This document shows positions 30,739 to 45,815 of a DNA stretch of 64,000 bases, piece by piece. Made by a program: the position numbers and the translations under genes. Numbering within the stretch: the first letter of the stretch is position 1; each line of letters begins with the position of its first letter. The notes beneath the pieces are model-generated. The model was not told where the DNA came from, made no database searches, and saw only the letters and a list, made by a program, of their open reading frames with translations. This stretch comes from Brachyspira alvinipulli ATCC 51933 (GTDB taxonomy: Bacteria > Spirochaetota > Brachyspiria > Brachyspirales > Brachyspiraceae): NCBI RefSeq assembly GCF_000518245.1, contig NZ_KI912403.1, positions 62,001-126,000 of the forward strand, read 5' to 3'.

Positions 30739-32727
30739 TTATTCCTCTCCATCAACTTTTTTATCATTTTTAGGTTCGCCTCTATATTTTTCTGTTTGAA
30801 TCATTCCGCCTTCTTCAAAGAAAGTAATAGATTTATAGCTTTGTCTTATAGAAAACTCAGCACTTCCTATAGTTAATTGTACTCCAGGAAGCATCTCTTT
30901 ACCCGCACTTACAGTAGATTCAACTTTTTCAACTTCCATTTCCTGAACCAAAGCCTCTCTATTTAATACAACTTCTTCTCTTCTGCTTATAGCCTGTTCT
31001 AACTGCTCTTTGTAACTTTGTAATTGTTCTTTTTTCTCATCGTCCAATTTCTTGAGTTTAGCAGCTTGTTCTATAGACTTAATATTTCTTTCCGTTTCTT
31101 CAATAGAAATATCAAGTTCTTCTTTTTCTTTATCTAAATCATCAACAGCACGTCTTTTAGCAGGACTAATACCTGTTTCAATTAAAGTTTTAGCACCGGC
31201 TTGGGAACCTAATACCTTACCATTAACCTCAACTAAAGCTCTAAGTCTTCCGCCGCTTGCAGAAGCTCTCTTACCTATAAGTATTATTCTATTATCAGAA
31301 TCAATATTAGAATTAAGTATCGCCTCAGTAACAACAACATTATTTCCAGCTTGAACATTAGAGAATTGTATAAATTTGGCAATAACATCTCCTCCAGCTT
31401 TTACGAAACTATTTTCATTACCTTGTATACCAAGTTTAACCATAATGTCACCCTTAGCTTCCAAGTCACATTTTCCAACTGTTCCATGAACATCTATATT
31501 TCCTTCTGCTTTAACAGAATAATTATCACTTACACTTCCTTTAACAACAACACTTCCTATAAAATTGATGTTTCCTGTTTCAGGTCCAACATCTCCAGAT
31601 ACTTCAAATATAGGTTCAACACTAAGAAGTTTTCCTTTTAGAACAACCTGACCGTTTATAGAAGAAATTATAAACTCTTTATCATCTGATAATTCAACAT
31701 TATCACCTAAAACTTCTTTAATATCTATATCTTTACCAGGTTTTGTCTCTATTTTTAGACCAAGTACTGTTCTTCCTGTTTCTCCGTCTGTTGCAGGTAA
31801 TTTTCTAGCTAATTTTTGTCCCTGCTCAACATTTTCAACTATACTTAAATCTTTATAGTCAATACTTTGATCCTCAGCTATATATTTAGGTATAACTTTC
31901 TTATTTACATTAACTAAATATTCTATCTTAGCATTCTGACCATTAACAGGAGGACGTCCTTCAGCAGCAAGTATTGGTACATTAAAAGTTCCTTCTTCTA
32001 AACATCTTGCAACATTTTCTTCTTGGAATCCAAAAGTAATACTGCTGTTTTCCAACAATTCTTTTACATCCTGCAAATCCATTTCCCTTCCGCCTCTGGT
32101 AGGTTTTGTAACTGTAACATAAGCACGCATTTTATCATCACTGATAGTATAACTTATCTTAGCATTGTTGGCAGACTTTGATACATCCCATTCAGCAATT
32201 TTTTCATATACCCCAGTTTGTTCATGAAGCATTTTTTTGGCAAGATGTGAGTCATATTCTTTTATACCAGCATCTATCAATTTTCTTTCCAAGTCCATCA
32301 TATCCTCAACTCTTTTGCCTTCAGCAACCGGAGGTACAACTTTTAAGAATACTCCATCTCTCTTAACTCTTACAACTATTTCTGTATCTTTATTAAATAC
32401 CATTTTCTCCTGAGTATTCTCTCCAACATCTCCTGTTGTATAATCAACTCCTGAACCAAAAGCAATATTGGATCTTTCATATATAATATGAGTATATCTT
32501 ACAAGGAAAGGTTTAGCCCCTATATTAAAAAATCCTTTGCTTCCCTCTTCAAGTACTTTATAGCTTAATTCATATATAGGGCATTGAAATATAGCAGCTG
32601 CTTCCTGCATACCTCTCTCTAAAGAACTAACATATAAATCAACAGAACGTGTATTTTTATTATTATAAACTTTCTTATAAAAATCACTTTCCAATATTTT
32701 TCTTTTTAATTCATTCATAAAAATCAC
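30739..32727 (-). CDS. FapA-family (DUF342) protein
   Basis: 662 residues. The central part is the glycine-rich beta-helix of DUF342/FapA: GSVVVKGSVSDNYSVKAEG, then IDVHGTVGKCDLEAKGDI (about residues 390-450). It is followed by a coiled coil (about 540-600) and a short C-terminal beta segment. The N-terminal 100 residues resemble a Jag-like domain (ISSLERGMQEAAAIF... type helix, YELSYKVLEEGSKGFFNIG). Members accompany flagellar genes and FapA controls FlhF-dependent polar placement in Vibrio. Located directly downstream of the flagellar sigma factor. Confidence 0.8.
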   Translation of the reverse strand: MIFMNELKRKILESDFYKKVYNNKNTRSVDLYVSSLERGMQEAAAIFQCPIYELSYKVLEEGSKGFFNIGAKPFLVRYTHIIYERSNIAFGSGVDYTTGDVGENTQEKMVFNKDTEIVVRVKRDGVFLKVVPPVAEGKRVEDMMDLERKLIDAGIKEYDSHLAKKMLHEQTGVYEKIAEWDVSKSANNAKISYTISDDKMRAYVTVTKPTRGGREMDLQDVKELLENSSITFGFQEENVARCLEEGTFNVPILAAEGRPPVNGQNAKIEYLVNVNKKVIPKYIAEDQSIDYKDLSIVENVEQGQKLARKLPATDGETGRTVLGLKIETKPGKDIDIKEVLGDNVELSDDKEFIISSINGQVVLKGKLLSVEPIFEVSGDVGPETGNINFIGSVVVKGSVSDNYSVKAEGNIDVHGTVGKCDLEAKGDIMVKLGIQGNENSFVKAGGDVIAKFIQFSNVQAGNNVVVTEAILNSNIDSDNRIILIGKRASASGGRLRALVEVNGKVLGSQAGAKTLIETGISPAKRRAVDDLDKEKEELDISIEETERNIKSIEQAAKLKKLDDEKKEQLQSYKEQLEQAISRREEVVLNREALVQEMEVEKVESTVSAGKEMLPGVQLTIGSAEFSIRQSYKSITFFEEGGMIQTEKYRGEPKNDKKVDGEE

Positions 32728-33577: not shown

Positions 33578-34207
33578 TTACTTATTCTCTTTCTCATCTT
33601 TCGCTATCATAGTTCTAACAGCTTTAGCTACTTTTTCAGGATCCTCATGAACTTCTTTAATTATTTCACTATCTTTTACCTTTTTATCTGGGAACATACT
33701 GCTGCTTGAAGAACTATAACTTGTTGGTGAAGTATTTGTGTTTGAACTTCCAAAAACAATACTTCCTATATCATCAGTGGAATTATGATAATCCACTTTC
33801 TGATTTTTATCAATATTAGGAACAGTATTTGATATAGGGTCAGTATTAATGTTTATATCACTGTTACTTGAAGCATCATTTGGCAAAATAGTATCATTAG
33901 GATTTTCATATCCTGCCATAGTATTATCATCTATAGCACCATAATCTATATCTGAATTTGATGAAGGAGCTGCTGATTCATTTATAACATCTCCTAAATA
34001 CTTTTTTAATACCATTCCAATTAAAAATAATATTCCTGATGTTATAATAGCAGAAATAATAGCTTTCACAATAGAAATATCCACTCTATTTTTATAAAGA
34101 ATAGAAAGTATAAGTGTTATTATAAATGATAAACCTATTATTATTCCAGCCAATTTACCAAAATTAGTAGAAAAATACTGTTTAACCTTTTCAACTATAT
34201 TATTCAT
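33578..34207 (-). CDS. Membrane protein of the flagellar operon, unknown function
   Basis: 209 residues. Two membrane segments (LAGIIIGLSFIITLILSILY, about residues 18-38, and IVKAIISAIITSGILFLIGM, about 46-66) are followed by a low-complexity Ser/Asn/Asp-rich tail and a charged end (EKVAKAVRTMIAKDEKENK). Spirochaete flagellar operons often hold an unassigned membrane protein between fleN and the sigma factor, and this one occupies that place. No family motif recognised. Spacing of 33 and 26 bases to its neighbours suggests co-transcription. Confidence 0.7.
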   Translation of the reverse strand: MNNIVEKVKQYFSTNFGKLAGIIIGLSFIITLILSILYKNRVDISIVKAIISAIITSGILFLIGMVLKKYLGDVINESAAPSSNSDIDYGAIDDNTMAGYENPNDTILPNDASSNSDININTDPISNTVPNIDKNQKVDYHNSTDDIGSIVFGSSNTNTSPTSYSSSSSSMFPDKKVKDSEIIKEVHEDPEKVAKAVRTMIAKDEKENK

Positions 34208-34240: not shown

Positions 34241-35104
34241 TTATTTTTTACTAACAAATGATAATAAAGATTCAACAAAACCGCCAAAACCTTTTATATC
34301 TCTGCCGTCATCATACTCCATATCTATTATCTTTTTAGCAATATTATATATAGATATAGATGCATGACATTTATTATCATATTGATAAAAAGGAAGCTGC
34401 TGCGAAACAGCATAAGGTATAGTTTTATCCTCTAAAATATGTCCTAAATATTTAATATCCATATCTAAATATTTTTTGCTAGTCATTATAATTTTATCAC
34501 CAACTTCCTTACCTTCAGAAGCCTTAGTAACTCTATTAACTAATATTTTTATATCAGCATTGGCATTTTCAGGAGCTATTGATTTTATAACTCCATAGGC
34601 ATCCAATATAGCTGTAAGCTCAGGAGTTGTAACAACAATACTTTCATCTGATGAAAGTAAAAAGTACAAAACTGTATCCGATATTCCAGCTCCTGTATCC
34701 ACTATAACTATATCAGCATCATTCAAAGAATCCATACTATTAACTAATTTGCTTAAAGCTCTTCCAGAAAGATTGGCTAAAGAAGAAAATCCCGAAGCAC
34801 CAGCAATATATCTTATTCCATAATTAGTTTCAAGTATAACTTCATGCAGTTTTTTTACACCTTTTATCACATGATATAAATTATATTCAGGCATATTTCC
34901 AAGTATTACATTAACATTACCTAGTCCAAGATCTGCATCTATTAAAAGCACATTTTGTCCCAATTGCTGCAATGCTATTGATAAATTAATTGCAATATTT
35001 GTTTTACCAACACCGCCTTTGCCGCTGGCTATACTAATGATACGCTGAGGACGTTTATCTTTAACACCCATCATCTTTCTTAATTCATCTGCTTGATCTT
35101 TCAT
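34241..35104 (-). CDS. flhG: FleN/FlhG (YlxH) MinD-like ATPase
   Basis: 287 residues. The deviant Walker A SGKGGVGKTNIAINLS (about residues 27-42), switch segment LIDADLGLGNVNVILG and VDTGAGISD (about 145) identify a ParA/MinD ATPase of the FlhG type. It controls flagellar number and placement together with FlhF, whose gene is just upstream (43-base gap). The N-terminal ADELRKMMG is similar to the FlhG activation helix that stimulates FlhF GTPase. Complete. Confidence 0.9.
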   Translation of the reverse strand: MKDQADELRKMMGVKDKRPQRIISIASGKGGVGKTNIAINLSIALQQLGQNVLLIDADLGLGNVNVILGNMPEYNLYHVIKGVKKLHEVILETNYGIRYIAGASGFSSLANLSGRALSKLVNSMDSLNDADIVIVDTGAGISDTVLYFLLSSDESIVVTTPELTAILDAYGVIKSIAPENANADIKILVNRVTKASEGKEVGDKIIMTSKKYLDMDIKYLGHILEDKTIPYAVSQQLPFYQYDNKCHASISIYNIAKKIIDMEYDDGRDIKGFGGFVESLLSFVSKK

Positions 35105-35147: not shown

Positions 35148-37151
35148 TTATATTTTTCCAAATAATCCTTCAATTAACTTATATCCATATTTCTTAGCAG
35201 TAGATATATCTTTAGGAACACCCTGACCATGTGTAATATAAGTAATAGGCAATTTCTTTTTAATTATAGCACATATCGATGAAGCCAAATAATCTGTTTC
35301 ATCAACTTTTGTTAATATAACACCTTTATAATTTGTAGGTTTAAATGCATTCAATATTTTTACCGCATCTTTATATTTAGCTGTAGAACTCATAACAAGC
35401 TGAATATCCATGTCAAATCTTCCTACTGTAGTAAAATATTTTGACATAGCAACTATATCCTCAGCACCTTTAGGAGAACGTCCCATAGTGTCTATAAATA
35501 ATAAAGATGAATTGTCCATTTTTCTAATTTCAGCCCTTAATGCTTCAGGAGTACTTGCACTTGTAAATGGAACTTTCATTATGCTGGCATACCTTTGAAG
35601 CTGATCAACAGCAGCTATTCTGTAATTATCTATAGTTACAAATGAAACTTTTTTACCAGATTTCATATGCTGAGCTGCTATTTTAGGTATTGTTGTAGTT
35701 TTTCCAACTCCTGTAGGTCCTACAAATACTATAATTTTCTTTTTTACTCCTATGTCTATACCATTTGATAATATCAATCTCTCAGAAAAATATTTTTCAA
35801 CCTCTTCTAAAATTACATCTTTTGATTGAAAAAATCTGGCATTGCTTGAAGTTAATAAATATTCTCTTAAGTCTAATAAAATCTCTTCAGGGAATTCTCT
35901 ATTTCTTAAATAGTTAAAACTCTCTTCCATTCCATCAGCAACATTAACTTCAGAATCATTTTCCATATTATTTTCAAAATAATTTCTTATTCTATTGCTG
36001 CTTTTTTTATCTCTAGGTTCTCTAGTTAAATTATTTTCTTCTCTAAACTCTTTTATCTCATCTATAGAATCTTGTATATCATTTTCTTCATCGTTGAATG
36101 CATTGTCATTATATTCTGTTTTCTGATGATATGCATTATCATTAAATCTATCATTTATATTATTGGAGTTATAATTTTTGTTTAAATTTATATTTGGTAT
36201 ACTATTTTCCAAATATTCTTTTACCATATCTTTTATTTGTTCTTGAACTAATCTCTTAACATTTTCATCTATAGAACTATTAAGCTGAGAATTATTATAT
36301 GTATTATTCACAGCATTATTAATATTACTATGAACATTAGTATTCATACTGTTCATAAAACTATTGCTAGAAAAATTACTGTAATTATTGATTGGAGAAA
36401 AGCTATTATTAGTATTATTGGAAGTATAAGCAGAATCAGCCGACATTCCATTTCCCATATTTGCAAATATAGAATTTGAAAATGCAGAATTAGAATATTG
36501 AGAATTATTAAAGTTAGGCAAAGGAGTAAAATTATCATTACTTCTTTCAATACTGCTTCTTTCTATATTATTGTTATTTCTATCTAAATTATTAGCACTA
36601 TTAATATTAAAACTTGTATTATTATTTTCTGTATATGCAGAAGTATTGCTAATATCTGTATTATCATTTTTATTAGAAAACTCATCAGCAAAACCTAATT
36701 CCTCTGCATTTTCTTCTTTGTTATTAAAAGCAGGTGTATCCAATGCAGGAGAAGTATTTGTATTTACCTTGTTTGCATTTCTCTTTTTTAAATCCTCTTT
36801 TAATCTTCTGCTTATTGAAGCTATTCTATCAGCCATTTCACTTGCATCAATAGCTTCTGTACCATGCTTTTTCATCTCTATTCTATCACTTAAAAGTTTG
36901 CTTCTATGCATACCATCATCTTCTTCGTCATAAGAAGATCTATTTTCATCAGAATTGTTATTTTTTCTATCATATATAGAGTTGTTAAGCATTATTCTAA
37001 GTTCATGCTCTGTTTTCATTCCTAAACCCAAAAAACCGCCCACTTTAATATCTCTGCTTGTCAATATAACAAAATTACCGCCATACTCTACCCTAGCTTT
37101 AGCAAAAGCATCAGTTTTATCCTTCCCTCTAATAGTGCGTATGTCTACCAT
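35148..37151 (-). CDS. flhF: Flagellar GTPase FlhF
   Basis: 667 residues, far longer than the usual 370-450. The N-terminal domain (residues 1-53, YGGNFVILTSRDIKVGGFLG) is followed by a charged stretch, an Asn/Ser-rich low-complexity segment (about residues 115-345), an acidic/Arg stretch, then the SRP-type GTPase: VGPTGVGKTTTIPKIAAQH (G1, about 481-499), FIDTMGRSP (G3) and ILTKVDETDYL (G4). FlhF directs where flagella are built at the pole. Its neighbours flhA, the mini FlhF-N protein and flhG fit. The long Asn-rich insert is unusual; the frame is intact. Confidence 0.93.
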   Translation of the reverse strand: MVDIRTIRGKDKTDAFAKARVEYGGNFVILTSRDIKVGGFLGLGMKTEHELRIMLNNSIYDRKNNNSDENRSSYDEEDDGMHRSKLLSDRIEMKKHGTEAIDASEMADRIASISRRLKEDLKKRNANKVNTNTSPALDTPAFNNKEENAEELGFADEFSNKNDNTDISNTSAYTENNNTSFNINSANNLDRNNNNIERSSIERSNDNFTPLPNFNNSQYSNSAFSNSIFANMGNGMSADSAYTSNNTNNSFSPINNYSNFSSNSFMNSMNTNVHSNINNAVNNTYNNSQLNSSIDENVKRLVQEQIKDMVKEYLENSIPNINLNKNYNSNNINDRFNDNAYHQKTEYNDNAFNDEENDIQDSIDEIKEFREENNLTREPRDKKSSNRIRNYFENNMENDSEVNVADGMEESFNYLRNREFPEEILLDLREYLLTSSNARFFQSKDVILEEVEKYFSERLILSNGIDIGVKKKIIVFVGPTGVGKTTTIPKIAAQHMKSGKKVSFVTIDNYRIAAVDQLQRYASIMKVPFTSASTPEALRAEIRKMDNSSLLFIDTMGRSPKGAEDIVAMSKYFTTVGRFDMDIQLVMSSTAKYKDAVKILNAFKPTNYKGVILTKVDETDYLASSICAIIKKKLPITYITHGQGVPKDISTAKKYGYKLIEGLFGKI

Positions 37152-37212: not shown

Positions 37213-37386
37213 TTAATACTGTTCCAATACGCCGATAGATACTTCAAACTCTTTTTTAATCATGCCGAAAATATTTTTTCTTTTGCTTTCTCTCACGCTA
37301 ATGATAAAATAACTTTCACCATATTTATCTCTAGCCTGTTTTTCAATTTCTTCTCTGTTTTTTCCAAATATTTTAATAGTTTTCAT
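37213..37386 (-). CDS. Stand-alone FlhF/Jag-type N-terminal domain protein
   Basis: 57 residues, between flhA and flhF on the same strand, with GGAG seven bases before the ATG. The sequence follows the N-terminal domain of the neighbouring FlhF: IFGKNREEIEKQARDKYGES against IRGKDKTDAFAKARVEYGGN, then YFIISVRESKRKNIFGMIKK against FVILTSRDIKVGGFLGLGMK. This is the Jag-N-like fold that also precedes GTPase or KH domains elsewhere. There is no GTPase part. Gaps of 56 and 61 bases place it in the operon. Probably a real gene that routine calling would miss; role unknown. Confidence 0.75.
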   Translation of the reverse strand: MKTIKIFGKNREEIEKQARDKYGESYFIISVRESKRKNIFGMIKKEFEVSIGVLEQY

Positions 37387-37442
37387 AGTTATAACTCCAA
37401 ATATTAATATTTATATCTTAATTACTCTTTAAAAGAGATATT

Positions 37443-39563
37443 TTATTTTATACTTGCAATTCCCTCTACTTTATACCCTTGTGCTATTTCAGTAGTAGCT
37501 ATAACCTTATACTTTCCAACATTCTTAGATATAAATTGGAATAAAGGTCTTCTGATTATAGGAGAAGTTAAAAATACTATATCATCAACTCCATTATCAT
37601 TAACAAGTTTAACTGCATCTTTTATATTTTTAATCAAGTTCTGCATACTTTCAAAACTCATAGCAATCATTTGAGAACCCTGTATATTTCCAGTATTTGC
37701 CAAATTTTGTGCTATATTATTTTGAAGCTGCTGACTCAATGTAATAACTCTTATATTTTTATTTTGGTCTGCAACCATCTGCGATATCTGAGGAGCTAAC
37801 CTGCTTCTTACAAGTTCTGTAGCCTGTTCACTACCCATCATAGATATAGCATCAGCAACACCTTCTAATATTGCAACGCTGTTCTTAATAGGAACTTCCT
37901 CTTGAAGAAGATTCTGCAATACTTTCTGTATGTATCCAAGAGGACTTTCATTATGAGGCTTAGCAGCAAGTACTTCAGATACAAGAGCTTTGTGATCATC
38001 TTTAATACGATCAAGCATATTCTGAACTTCTTCACGGCCGATAAGAAGATTAGCATTTCTCTTAATTGTTTCACTAAAATGAGTTGCTATAACTGCTGTT
38101 GGGTCAAATAACATAAATCCTTTCTTAGCAGCCATATCCCTCTCATCAACATGTATCCAATAAGCAGGAAGTCCGAATGAAGGATCTTTAACCTTTTCAC
38201 AATCTGGAGATGGTTCTTCCTGTAAATTAGAGTTCAAAGCTAAAAGCATCTTAGGTCTTACGAAACCTTTAGCCACTTCTGTACCGTTAATACTGATAGT
38301 ATATTCATCTTGATCTATTACTGTGTTATCAAGAATTCTTACTGGAGGAACAGCCAAACCAATCTCTAATGCCAATTCTCTTCTAACCTGAGTTATTCTA
38401 TGTATTAAATCGCCGCCTTGATCCTCTAATGCCAAAGGTACCAATGATGTAGCTATAGAAAGTTCTATCTTCTCAACTTTCAAATACTGACTTACATCTA
38501 AAGGACCTCTCTGTGTCTGTTCAGCATCTGCAGTTTTAGTACCATCTTCATTAAGACCAAGCTCCTGCTGTTCTTTTCTTAAAGCATAACCTGCTAGGAA
38601 TAATGCCAATGCTATAACAAATAATGCTATTTTTGGGAATCCAGGTAAAAGCATTAAGAAGAATGCAAAACCTGCACCTATAAATAAGTTTTTAGGCTTA
38701 GCAAAAACCTGTACAGCAATCTGAGTAGACAAATTATCCTCACTGCTGCTTCTAGTTACAAGCAAACCAGTAGCAAAACTCATAAAGAATGAAGGTATCT
38801 GACTTACCAAACCATCACCAACAGTAAAACGAGTATAAGCATCAGCAGCCTGAGCAAAAGGCTCACCTCTCATAGTCATACCAATAACAAGTCCGCCTAC
38901 TATATTTATAACTGTGATTATGATACCGGCTATAACGTCACCTTGTACAAACTTTGAAGCACCGTCCATAGTACCATAAAAATCACTTTCGCTTCTTATC
39001 TTTTTTCTTTTATCTTCAGCTTCTTTATCTGTAATAGCTCCCGCCTGCAATTCGCTTTCAACTGCCATCATCTTTGAAGGCATACTATCCAATGCGAATC
39101 TTGCTGCAACTTCTGATACCCTTGTTGCACCTTTTGTGATAACAACAAACTGTACTATTATAAGTATTATAAATATTACAACACCTACAACTATATTATT
39201 ACCAACTACAAACTCAGCAAATGATGTAATAACTTTACCATTAAAATTAGCACCTTGTGTTAGAATTGCTCTAGTTGTAGATACGTTTAATGCTAATCTG
39301 AATGCCGTCATAACAAGCAGAACAGAAGGGAATACACTAAACTCACTGGCACTTTTCAAACTTAATACCATAAGAAGTATTAAAAGAGATATTACGATAT
39401 TTACTATAAGCAAAAAGTCCAAAATCATTGAAGGTAATGGTATAATGAGCATCATTATTACCATAACCGCACCAACTGCAAACATTATATCGCTATGTCT
39501 GCTTATATTAGCAGGCAGTTTTATCGAATCCAAAATTGATTTAGCACCATTCATTGTTGCCAC
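37443..39563 (-). CDS. flhA: Flagellar export gate protein FlhA
   Basis: 706 residues. Eight membrane segments in the N-terminal half include the family signature RVSEVAARFALDSMPSKMMA (about residues 148-167), followed by the cytoplasmic ring domain from about residue 350. FlhA forms the export gate that docks substrate-chaperone complexes. Starts 12 bases after flhB. Good length and no breaks. Confidence 0.97.
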   Translation of the reverse strand: MATMNGAKSILDSIKLPANISRHSDIMFAVGAVMVIMMLIIPLPSMILDFLLIVNIVISLLILLMVLSLKSASEFSVFPSVLLVMTAFRLALNVSTTRAILTQGANFNGKVITSFAEFVVGNNIVVGVVIFIILIIVQFVVITKGATRVSEVAARFALDSMPSKMMAVESELQAGAITDKEAEDKRKKIRSESDFYGTMDGASKFVQGDVIAGIIITVINIVGGLVIGMTMRGEPFAQAADAYTRFTVGDGLVSQIPSFFMSFATGLLVTRSSSEDNLSTQIAVQVFAKPKNLFIGAGFAFFLMLLPGFPKIALFVIALALFLAGYALRKEQQELGLNEDGTKTADAEQTQRGPLDVSQYLKVEKIELSIATSLVPLALEDQGGDLIHRITQVRRELALEIGLAVPPVRILDNTVIDQDEYTISINGTEVAKGFVRPKMLLALNSNLQEEPSPDCEKVKDPSFGLPAYWIHVDERDMAAKKGFMLFDPTAVIATHFSETIKRNANLLIGREEVQNMLDRIKDDHKALVSEVLAAKPHNESPLGYIQKVLQNLLQEEVPIKNSVAILEGVADAISMMGSEQATELVRSRLAPQISQMVADQNKNIRVITLSQQLQNNIAQNLANTGNIQGSQMIAMSFESMQNLIKNIKDAVKLVNDNGVDDIVFLTSPIIRRPLFQFISKNVGKYKVIATTEIAQGYKVEGIASIK

Positions 39564-42903: not shown

Positions 42904-43483
42904 TCAAATAAACAAAGCCATCATATAACAATTATAATAAACTCCATCTATACAAAAAAAATCTTTTAACTCACCTTCTGTTACAAATCCGATATTTTTA
43001 TACAGTTTAATTGCTCTTTCGTTATCAGTTCTAACAGTTAATTCTATTTTTTTTATAGAATTCTTTTTACAATAGTCCGCAGCATTAAGAATTAATTTCT
43101 TAGCAATACCTCTTCCCAATATTTTTTTAATACGCTTATGCCAAGATTACTCTAACCTTATCAATACCTCTTAAATTACATATTGCCGCTATTTGAGTAT
43201 CAATTTCATACAAAAACATCTTTGTAGTTATGCTTTTTTGTATACTTTGTAAAAATTCCTCCTCTTTTTTTACATCTAACTCTCTTTCATCAGATCCTGA
43301 TAGCATAAAATTGGTTTCATCAGATACTTTTATTATATATTCTATTACTTTTTCAGCATCTTCTATATGAGCCTCTCTTATGTTATCCATAAACTTAAAC
43401 CTGCAATATAAATTATCGGATTTTATTATGTAAACTGTAATATGATAACTTATTTTTTCTTTTTTGCAAATAATTTTTTTCAT
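42904..43483 (-). pseudogene. GNAT acetyltransferase, frameshifted
   Basis: Two adjoining frames make up one GNAT N-acetyltransferase. The first part (43136-43483) contains IREAHIEDAEKVIEYI and ICNLRGIDKVRV and then leaves frame. Between them a third frame encodes LGISVLKKYW (about 43104-43132), and the last part (from 43119 down) gives GRGIAKKLIL, DNERAIKLYKNIGF and the C-terminus. So at least two single-base losses separate the pieces, one in a GGG run at the YWG-GRG junction and one before LGISV, where some codons may also be missing. Expected substrate unknown. Sequencing error at both places is possible but less likely. Confidence 0.8.
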
Positions 43484-43588: not shown

Positions 43589-44308
43589 ATGATAAAAAAA
43601 TTACTATTGATTAACATTATTTTTTTATTTATTACTTCTATAATGTATGCAAATAACGGACATAAAGAACACTATATAGATATACTAGATAAAAAAATAT
43701 ATGTTTTAGATAATCTATTCAAAAATGAAAACATAACTATTATATTTGAAAAAAACACAATAAGCGGAAAAAGCACCGTAAATAAATATAATGCATCTTT
43801 TTCTTTAAATGACAAAGATATACAAATAAAAAATGTTTCAACTACTAAAATGGCTGGTCCTGATAATTTAATGAAAATAGAAAATGAATATTTAAATATG
43901 CTGTCAAATGCTAAAAATATTGATATCAAAGGAAATATTTTAAGTATAAAAACAAAAGACCATAAAGAATTAATATTTAGGGAGAAAATTGATTTATCAA
44001 TACATTATTTAAATGGCAAAGAATTTACATTAAAAAATGCATTTAATGATTCAAATATAACTATTTGTTTTACTAAAAATCATATATATGGTTATAATAA
44101 TAGTAATAGATATTATTCTTCATACACAATAAATGATGACAAAATATCTATTAAAGATTTAAAAATAGAAAACGGTAATGAAAATATTGAAGAGGATAAA
44201 TATATAAACTTATTTAATGATGTATACAAAATAAATTTGGAGGGTGATAATCTAATTTTAATTACTAGGGATAAAAAGAAAAGGTTAATTTATAAAATGA
44301 AATTTTGA
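43589..44308 (+). CDS. META-domain (HslJ-like) protein with two domain copies
   Basis: 239 residues with an N-terminal signal segment (about residues 1-21) and two META/HslJ-like units. The first keeps the hallmark TTKMAGPDNLMKIENEYLNM; the second (from about residue 135) follows the same strand order but has lost the MAGP motif. META domains occur in secreted or envelope proteins including heat-inducible HslJ; biochemical role unsettled. A related four-unit lipoprotein follows at 44433. The ribosome binding site is weak. Confidence 0.75.
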   Translation: MIKKLLLINIIFLFITSIMYANNGHKEHYIDILDKKIYVLDNLFKNENITIIFEKNTISGKSTVNKYNASFSLNDKDIQIKNVSTTKMAGPDNLMKIENEYLNMLSNAKNIDIKGNILSIKTKDHKELIFREKIDLSIHYLNGKEFTLKNAFNDSNITICFTKNHIYGYNNSNRYYSSYTINDDKISIKDLKIENGNENIEEDKYINLFNDVYKINLEGDNLILITRDKKKRLIYKMKF

Positions 44309-44363
44309 TGTTTAATTAAGAAAGCAATTATTCATTATTATCAGACTCCTAACACTATTATTG

Positions 44364-44392
44364 ATGGGCTTGTGATTTAATCATAAGCCCAT
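44364..44392 (+). terminator. Hairpin between META genes
   Basis: A 12-bp stem with one G-T pair (44364-44375 with 44381-44392) and a 5-base loop, followed by TTGTTTATA. Probably terminates the first META gene. Confidence 0.7.
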
Positions 44393-44432
44393 TGTTTATA
44401 ATACAACATATTTAAATAGGAAAGGAAATAAA

Positions 44433-45815
44433 ATGAAAAAAACACTATTATTAATTCTATCTACACTAACATTTTTTATATCATGCTCTACGGCAAAAAC
44501 ACAGACCCAGAATAATATTTTTGAAGCTATTAACGGCAAAGGATACTATTTGGTAAGCAATCCAAAAATACAAATTAATTTTGAAAATGGGAATGTATAC
44601 GGACATTCAGGCGTGAACAGATATTTTACAACATTTATAGTCACTAATAACAATATAGTTATAGGAACTAATATAGGATCAACTTTAATGGCAGGTCCTG
44701 AAGAAGATATGAAAAATGAACAAACTTTTTTAAATGATTTAGTAACAATTGATTCTGTATCTATTAATAATGGAGAAATAATTATGAAAACATCAGAAAA
44801 TAAAGAATTGGTATTTAAAGAAAAAGATATAACTTATGCTGATCTATACGGCAGAGAATTTATACTTGAAAATAAGTATACAAACATTGGAATAACAATA
44901 GGTTTTGATACCAACAGTATTTATGGATTTTCCGGTGTTAATAGATATTTTGGAGGATACACTCTTACCAATGGAAATACTATAACAATAGGAACATTGG
45001 GATCAACAATGATGGCAGGTCCTGAGGAAAATATGAATGCTGAAAGAGATTTTACAGCATTGCTTTCTGAAGCATCCAATATAACATTATCTATAACAAA
45101 TTTAGAGATAACAACAAAATCCGGAGAAAAATTGATATTTAAAGATAATTCTATTTCTGACAATAAACTGCTTGGAAAAAGTTTTATACTTCATAATTTT
45201 TACAAATACCCAAATGTACAGATAACTAAGTCTTTTTATGGTACAAATAATAATGTTAATGGATTTTCAGGAGTTAACACATATAGAAGCTCTTATACTA
45301 ATATAAACGGATGCGAAGTTAAATTTAATGGTTTGGCAATGACTAGAATGGCTGGTCCTGAAGAAAATATGAGAGCTGAAGCTGAATTTGCTAATTATAT
45401 AGAAAATGCAAAATATATGTATCTTAAAGGAAAAGAATTACACATAATAGCTAATGACTCCACAATATTAAAATTTATAGAAAATTATTTTGATGTTAAT
45501 GAGCATGCAGGAAAAAAATTCAAATTATCAAATATGTTTGAAGGTACGGAAATAACTTTATCTATAACTAATAATTCATTTGTAGGAAAATCAGGAGTTA
45601 ATAATTACAGTATACCGTTTGAAATAAAAGATAATAAATTAATAATAAGTAAAAAAGGAATATCAACATTAATGGCAGGTCCTGAAGAAGATATGAAAGC
45701 TGAAGATAAGTATATGGAACTTCTTAATAAAGCTAATTACATATCTTATAATAAAAATACTTTATGTATAAAAACGTCAGATAATGAGGTATTACTTTTT
45801 AATTTAGTAGATTAA
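44433..45815 (+). CDS. Lipoprotein with four tandem META domains
   Basis: 460 residues. The signal peptide ends in a lipobox (FFISC, Cys at about residue 19), so it is probably a lipoprotein. Four META-like units of about 105-110 residues follow, each with a GVNxY motif (SGVNRYF, SGVNRYFGGY, SGVNTYRSSY, SGVNNYSIPF) and a MAGPEExM motif. The regular copies suggest duplication from one ancestral domain. The ribosome binding site is AGGAAAG. Function unknown. Confidence 0.8.
   Translation: MKKTLLLILSTLTFFISCSTAKTQTQNNIFEAINGKGYYLVSNPKIQINFENGNVYGHSGVNRYFTTFIVTNNNIVIGTNIGSTLMAGPEEDMKNEQTFLNDLVTIDSVSINNGEIIMKTSENKELVFKEKDITYADLYGREFILENKYTNIGITIGFDTNSIYGFSGVNRYFGGYTLTNGNTITIGTLGSTMMAGPEENMNAERDFTALLSEASNITLSITNLEITTKSGEKLIFKDNSISDNKLLGKSFILHNFYKYPNVQITKSFYGTNNNVNGFSGVNTYRSSYTNINGCEVKFNGLAMTRMAGPEENMRAEAEFANYIENAKYMYLKGKELHIIANDSTILKFIENYFDVNEHAGKKFKLSNMFEGTEITLSITNNSFVGKSGVNNYSIPFEIKDNKLIISKKGISTLMAGPEEDMKAEDKYMELLNKANYISYNKNTLCIKTSDNEVLLFNLVD

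Follow-up and report, generated by a model that had tools for sequence, protein, structure and literature searches.

A frame of 57 codons with an ATG start lies between flhA and flhF in the flagellar operon of Brachyspira alvinipulli ATCC 51933, and raises the questions of whether it is a real gene, where it came from and what its product might bind. A preliminary description of the locus had presented it as a stand-alone copy of the N-terminal domain of FlhF devoid of the GTPase; that domain, defined in 2024 inside FlhF, is named the FliG interaction domain (FID) in PMC11236974. The analysis concerned a 64,000-nt stretch of DNA (the window) and the corresponding loci of other Spirochaetota.

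A small frame between flhA and flhF

The features of the window that matter here, all on the reverse strand, are as follows.

37213..37386 (-): small gene, encoding a 57-aa stand-alone FlhF N-terminal (FID-type) domain protein (TIGR03499, hhalign, fold, dN/dS, 31/31 Brachyspirales)
37395..37398 (-): GGAG, Shine-Dalgarno-like, 8 nt upstream of the small-gene ATG (read from the sequence)
37443..39563 (-): flhA, upstream neighbour (open reading frame, product recognised from sequence)
35148..37151 (-): flhF, full-length SRP-type GTPase with an Asn-rich linker (Pfam SRP54, NCBIfam TIGR03499/PRK12723)
36984..37151 (-): FlhF FID-type N-terminal domain (FlhF-N), residues 1-56, paralogue of the small gene (AlphaFold2/9en1, BLASTP)
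34241..35104 (-): flhG, MinD-type ATPase (open reading frame, Pfam ParA/CbiA)
32497..32622 (-): Jag_N domain within FapA, residues 36-77 (Pfam PF14804, E = 1.1e-10, 42.2 bits versus a cut-off of 25)

The small gene is separated by 56 nt from flhA and by 61 nt from flhF, and a GGAG-like element precedes the ATG in most of its other copies as well. When the genome was searched with its own small protein, the small gene was the sole full match and FlhF a weak second. The promoter scan was uninformative, since its 33 matches were near the shuffled background (25.6, sd 5.9). Within the interval separating the small gene from the co-directional flhF, the terminator scan gave no terminator-like signal on the coding strand; the terminator-like sites detected at 39496-39518 belong to the other strand. 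No published description of the small gene was found.

The N-terminus of FlhG (MKDQADELRK) fits, by eye, the FlhF-activating motif DQAxxLR as defined in PMC12826062. A single gene with a FliG_C domain was present in each of the five Brachyspirales genomes searched; together with the retained DQAxxLR, this suggests that the FlhF-FlhG circuit is intact. Two FliG proteins are known in some spirochaetes, and the possibility of two FliG targets in Brachyspirales was rejected on the basis of the same five genomes.

Two features of this region were noted in passing. Brachyspira FlhF carries a very long Asn/Ser-rich linker (residues about 60-400) between the N-domain and the GTPase, its frame being about 600-680 aa long as against about 380-610 aa for most other spirochaetes. 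The 209-aa protein encoded at 33578-34207 (-), for which a membrane segment is probable and Pfam gave no match, lies after flhG and before a sigma-28-like gene, the position of flgV in Borrelia; it is possibly a FlgV homologue.

Relationship to the FlhF N-terminal domain and to Jag_N

Residues 1-54 of the small protein matched positions 1-52 of the FlhF profile TIGR03499 (E = 1.7e-4), with a score of 21.7 bits against an equivalog cut-off of 174 bits. There was no Pfam match to SRP54, the NG GTPase domain: the protein ends after the N domain and, lacking the GTPase, is not an FlhF. The Pfam YdgH_BhsA-like match (E = 0.05) was rejected as being below the family cut-off. Sequence identity to the FlhF FID is low (32% over 47 aa with the FlhF N-terminus of the same genome, by BLASTP). 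A stronger test compared the profiles of two mutually exclusive families: eight Brachyspirales small proteins and 20 FlhF N-termini taken from spirochaetes of other orders. The hhalign probability was 98.1% (E = 7.6e-14, score 63.6 over 56 columns), and 100 column shuffles of that pair gave far lower scores (mean 10.1, sd 2.4, maximum 19.7). On the canonical FlhF-N profile, the scores of the small proteins (28-42 bits) fell in the range of those of Brachyspirales FlhF-N (32-53 bits); Jag and FapA reached 7-8 bits.

Structure prediction led to the same domain. The AlphaFold2 model of the small protein, made with 12 related sequences, has a pLDDT of 87 and consists of strand 2-8, helix 11-22, strand 26-37 and strand 43-53, an arrangement of one helix and three antiparallel strands that the FID crystal structure also shows. 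Its top PDB match in Foldseek was 9en1 (probability 1.00, TM up to 0.66/0.78), the entry for the 'FliG interacting domain of SpFlhF' from Shewanella putrefaciens (PMC11236974); the Foldseek E-value is weak (0.06), as is to be expected of a 57-residue chain. A sequence search of the PDB with the small-protein profile again put 9en1 first (E = 0.08). FlhF's own N-domain was modelled with the same layout (pLDDT 77.5) and the same best match (probability 1.00). Despite the weak E-values, two methods, sequence profile and fold, agree on 9en1.

Compared with the Shewanella FID (PMC11236974), the small protein has a similar size (about 45-60 aa), the same strand-helix-strand-strand order and the same location at the flhF locus; it differs in being encoded on its own, with neither linker nor GTPase, while an intact FlhF is also present, and in lacking the GG that in FlhF-N typically precedes the FLG turn. 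In its case FliG binding is a prediction. In the tree the small proteins form one group (93/92), distinct from FlhF and on a long branch; with 62 columns only, the tree is unable to date the duplication.

The preliminary description had also supposed that FapA starts with a Jag-like region and that FapA, FlhF and the small protein share one domain type. The first part was borne out by the Pfam Jag_N match listed above, and the genome also encodes Jag, itself with a Jag_N match. The second part was supported only in part: FapA carries Jag_N, whereas sequence comparison did not demonstrate it for FlhF-N or the small protein. Pfam listed no Jag_N match for the small protein at E up to 10, and Jag_N was absent among the best 25 families listed for FlhF at the same limit. 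The hhalign probability was 66% for FapA-N versus Jag-N, and only 12% for FlhF-N versus Jag-N, 32% for FlhF-N versus FapA-N, and 5% and 6.5% for the small protein versus Jag-N and FapA-N, respectively. The scores for FlhF-N and the small protein, though above all 100 shuffles, are low and too weak for membership; that for FapA-N versus Jag-N also exceeded the shuffles. A distant kinship is possible, because the strand-helix-strand-strand layout with its glycine turn is shared with Jag_N (as in Jag/EloR and FapA) and FlhF-N has weak matches, in sequence and in fold, that include the Jag structure 3gku.

Distribution, selection and origin

Absence or breakage of the frame in related species had been named as what would speak against a gene. 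The small gene was found in all 31 Brachyspirales genomes (five genera, two families; 26 of 26 in the genus Brachyspira), a class-level search giving the same 31, and is intact in 30. In the Brachyspirales loci read, flhA is directly upstream and flhF directly downstream. The exception is Brachyspira sp. G79, where two single-base deletions, both in runs of A, break the frame. Almost all other sites at which it differs from a close relative look like synonymous changes; this, together with the location of the deletions, makes sequencing error the probable, if not certain, explanation.

Within Brachyspira the variable sites were distributed as 16/16/50 over the first, second and third positions of the 57 codons. 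The mean dN/dS, calculated over the less saturated pairs (pS below 0.6), was 0.06 for the small gene and 0.063 for FlhF-N, and the small gene of the window differed from that of one other locus (L010) by 23 synonymous and one non-synonymous changes. The small gene is under strong purifying selection. It is a real gene, a class-restricted stand-alone FID paralogue, and the description of it as an FlhF N-terminal domain without GTPase between flhA and flhF withstood the profile searches, hhalign and the conservation analysis. A frame due to chance, or a decaying duplicate of the 5' end of flhF, to which the G79 deletions and the relaxed extra copies described below could lend some colour, is very improbable and was rejected in view of 30 intact copies of 31 over two families, the codon-position bias, the dN/dS and the profile homology, the G79 deletions themselves fitting sequencing error.

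Conservation of the small gene between flhA and flhF, which had been proposed as a check in other spirochaetes, did not extend beyond the Brachyspirales in the genomes searched. The search with the small-protein profile covered 198 Spirochaetota genomes, and among the 167 outside Brachyspirales there was no stand-alone copy: the matches were FlhF frames (376-613 aa) and a few unrelated frames, of which two, one nuclease-like (G060) and one encoding an RND pump (G095), were inspected and taken as chance. Where the junction of flhA and flhF was read in other spirochaete families, flhA abuts or precedes flhF with no small frame. A general spirochaete gene was rejected on these two grounds and, within Spirochaetota, the small gene is found only in Brachyspirales. 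It therefore appears to be a novelty of this class that most likely originated within the Brachyspirales, probably by one copying of the 5' end of flhF in their ancestor, the copy being kept beside the intact flhF.

Extra copies have since been gained in two sub-lineages.

L044:4193-4360: second stand-alone FID-like frame of 56 aa, directly after the first (the same stretch in L054, genome G019)
L034:4216-4467: extra frame of 83-84 aa between the small gene and flhF in B. hampsonii 30446 (also in L011 and L012)

The second copy of G019 forms a long branch within the small-protein clade. The extra frames of the B. hampsonii group (three genomes) cluster with FlhF-N, lack a short stretch of the helix and are under weaker constraint (pN/pS about 0.5).

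Candidate partners and roles

Since the domain is an FID, FliG is the first candidate partner. In Shewanella, FliG binding requires the first 60 aa of FlhF, which also suffice for it; the FID contacts mainly the middle and C-terminal domains of FliG, and FlhF-bound FliG can bind FliF but not FliM/FliN (PMC11236974). Such binding by an FID is known to us from Shewanella FlhF alone. According to a 2025 review, it is unclear whether flagellation patterns beyond the single polar one use the FlhF-FliG contact (PMC12826062). Because the FID alone suffices in Shewanella, the small protein is proposed to bind FliG in trans. By analogy with that system, we put at about even the chances that the free FID binds FliG in trans, competes with FlhF and affects motor number.

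The mechanism could be as follows. In full-length FlhF the domain is tied by the long linker to the GTPase; the free strand-helix-strand-strand FID would grip the single FliG at its middle and C-terminal domains, like the Shewanella FID. Such a grip would involve no link to the pole and no control by GTP hydrolysis or by FlhG, and for this reason the small protein would compete with FlhF for FliG. It could hold or stabilise new FliG, delaying the joining of FliM/FliN until FlhF delivers FliG, and the likely effect would be on the number of motors started per cell end. FipA of gamma-proteobacteria (PMC11620751, PMC12826062) is a precedent for modulation of the FlhF pathway by a separate protein: it is described as conserved and located in the membrane, and its interaction with FlhF places FlhF at the pole (PMC12826062); the small protein, for which such modulation is proposed, differs from FipA in copying FlhF's own domain. 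In its strongest and rather doubtful form, the proposal would make the free FID a natural, class-wide and dose-dependent antagonist of FlhF that occupies FliG and sets the number of periplasmic flagella per cell end. If that were true, a flagellar counting device would have been built by copying one domain, the copying being repeated at the same locus in sub-lineages.

The grouping of the small proteins on their own long branch also means that the partner may have changed. The small protein might be an FlhF-N paralogue that no longer binds FliG and contacts FlhF, FlhG, FapA, FlhA or a spirochaete-specific motor protein instead, for instance as a subunit pairing with the N-domain of FlhF. Loss of the GG turn is consistent with this, and so is the pattern of divergence, which fits a shifted function: within the genus the small protein diverges less than FlhF-N does (for example, 84% versus 60% identity between the window and G001), and across the order it diverges more (33-35% versus 46%). 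However, the small protein still scores well on the canonical FlhF-N profile and has the FID as its best fold match, and the data point to no particular partner. We regard a change of partner as somewhat unlikely, while taking it seriously.

Binding to FliG could also support FlhF rather than oppose it, the small protein acting as a helper that boosts FliG or makes it more stable. In E. coli, the stability of mVenus-FliG depended on the presence of FlhF (PMC11236974), and co-production of the small protein with FlhF is likely, given that the two genes are co-directional with no terminator-like signal between them on the coding strand. Yet placing FliG at the pole is beyond a protein that lacks the GTPase, and the stabilisation reported is that seen with FlhF; a helper role seems improbable.

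With competition for FliG as the preferred reading, a likely function is offered for a 57-residue protein easily dismissed as hypothetical. Brachyspirales separated the FID from the GTPase and kept it as a conserved gene of its own; in these bacteria, which have many periplasmic flagella, the FliG-binding role can thus be tested independently of that of the GTPase.

Two observations concern the window beyond the flagellar genes. At 42904-43483 (-), a GNAT acetyltransferase is apparently split into the frames 43136-43483 and 42904-43119; the latter matches Acetyltransf_1 (Pfam) from position 73 on, and the gene therefore looks frame-broken. At 43589-45815 (+), two adjacent proteins are made of repeated META domains, with two and four matched stretches.
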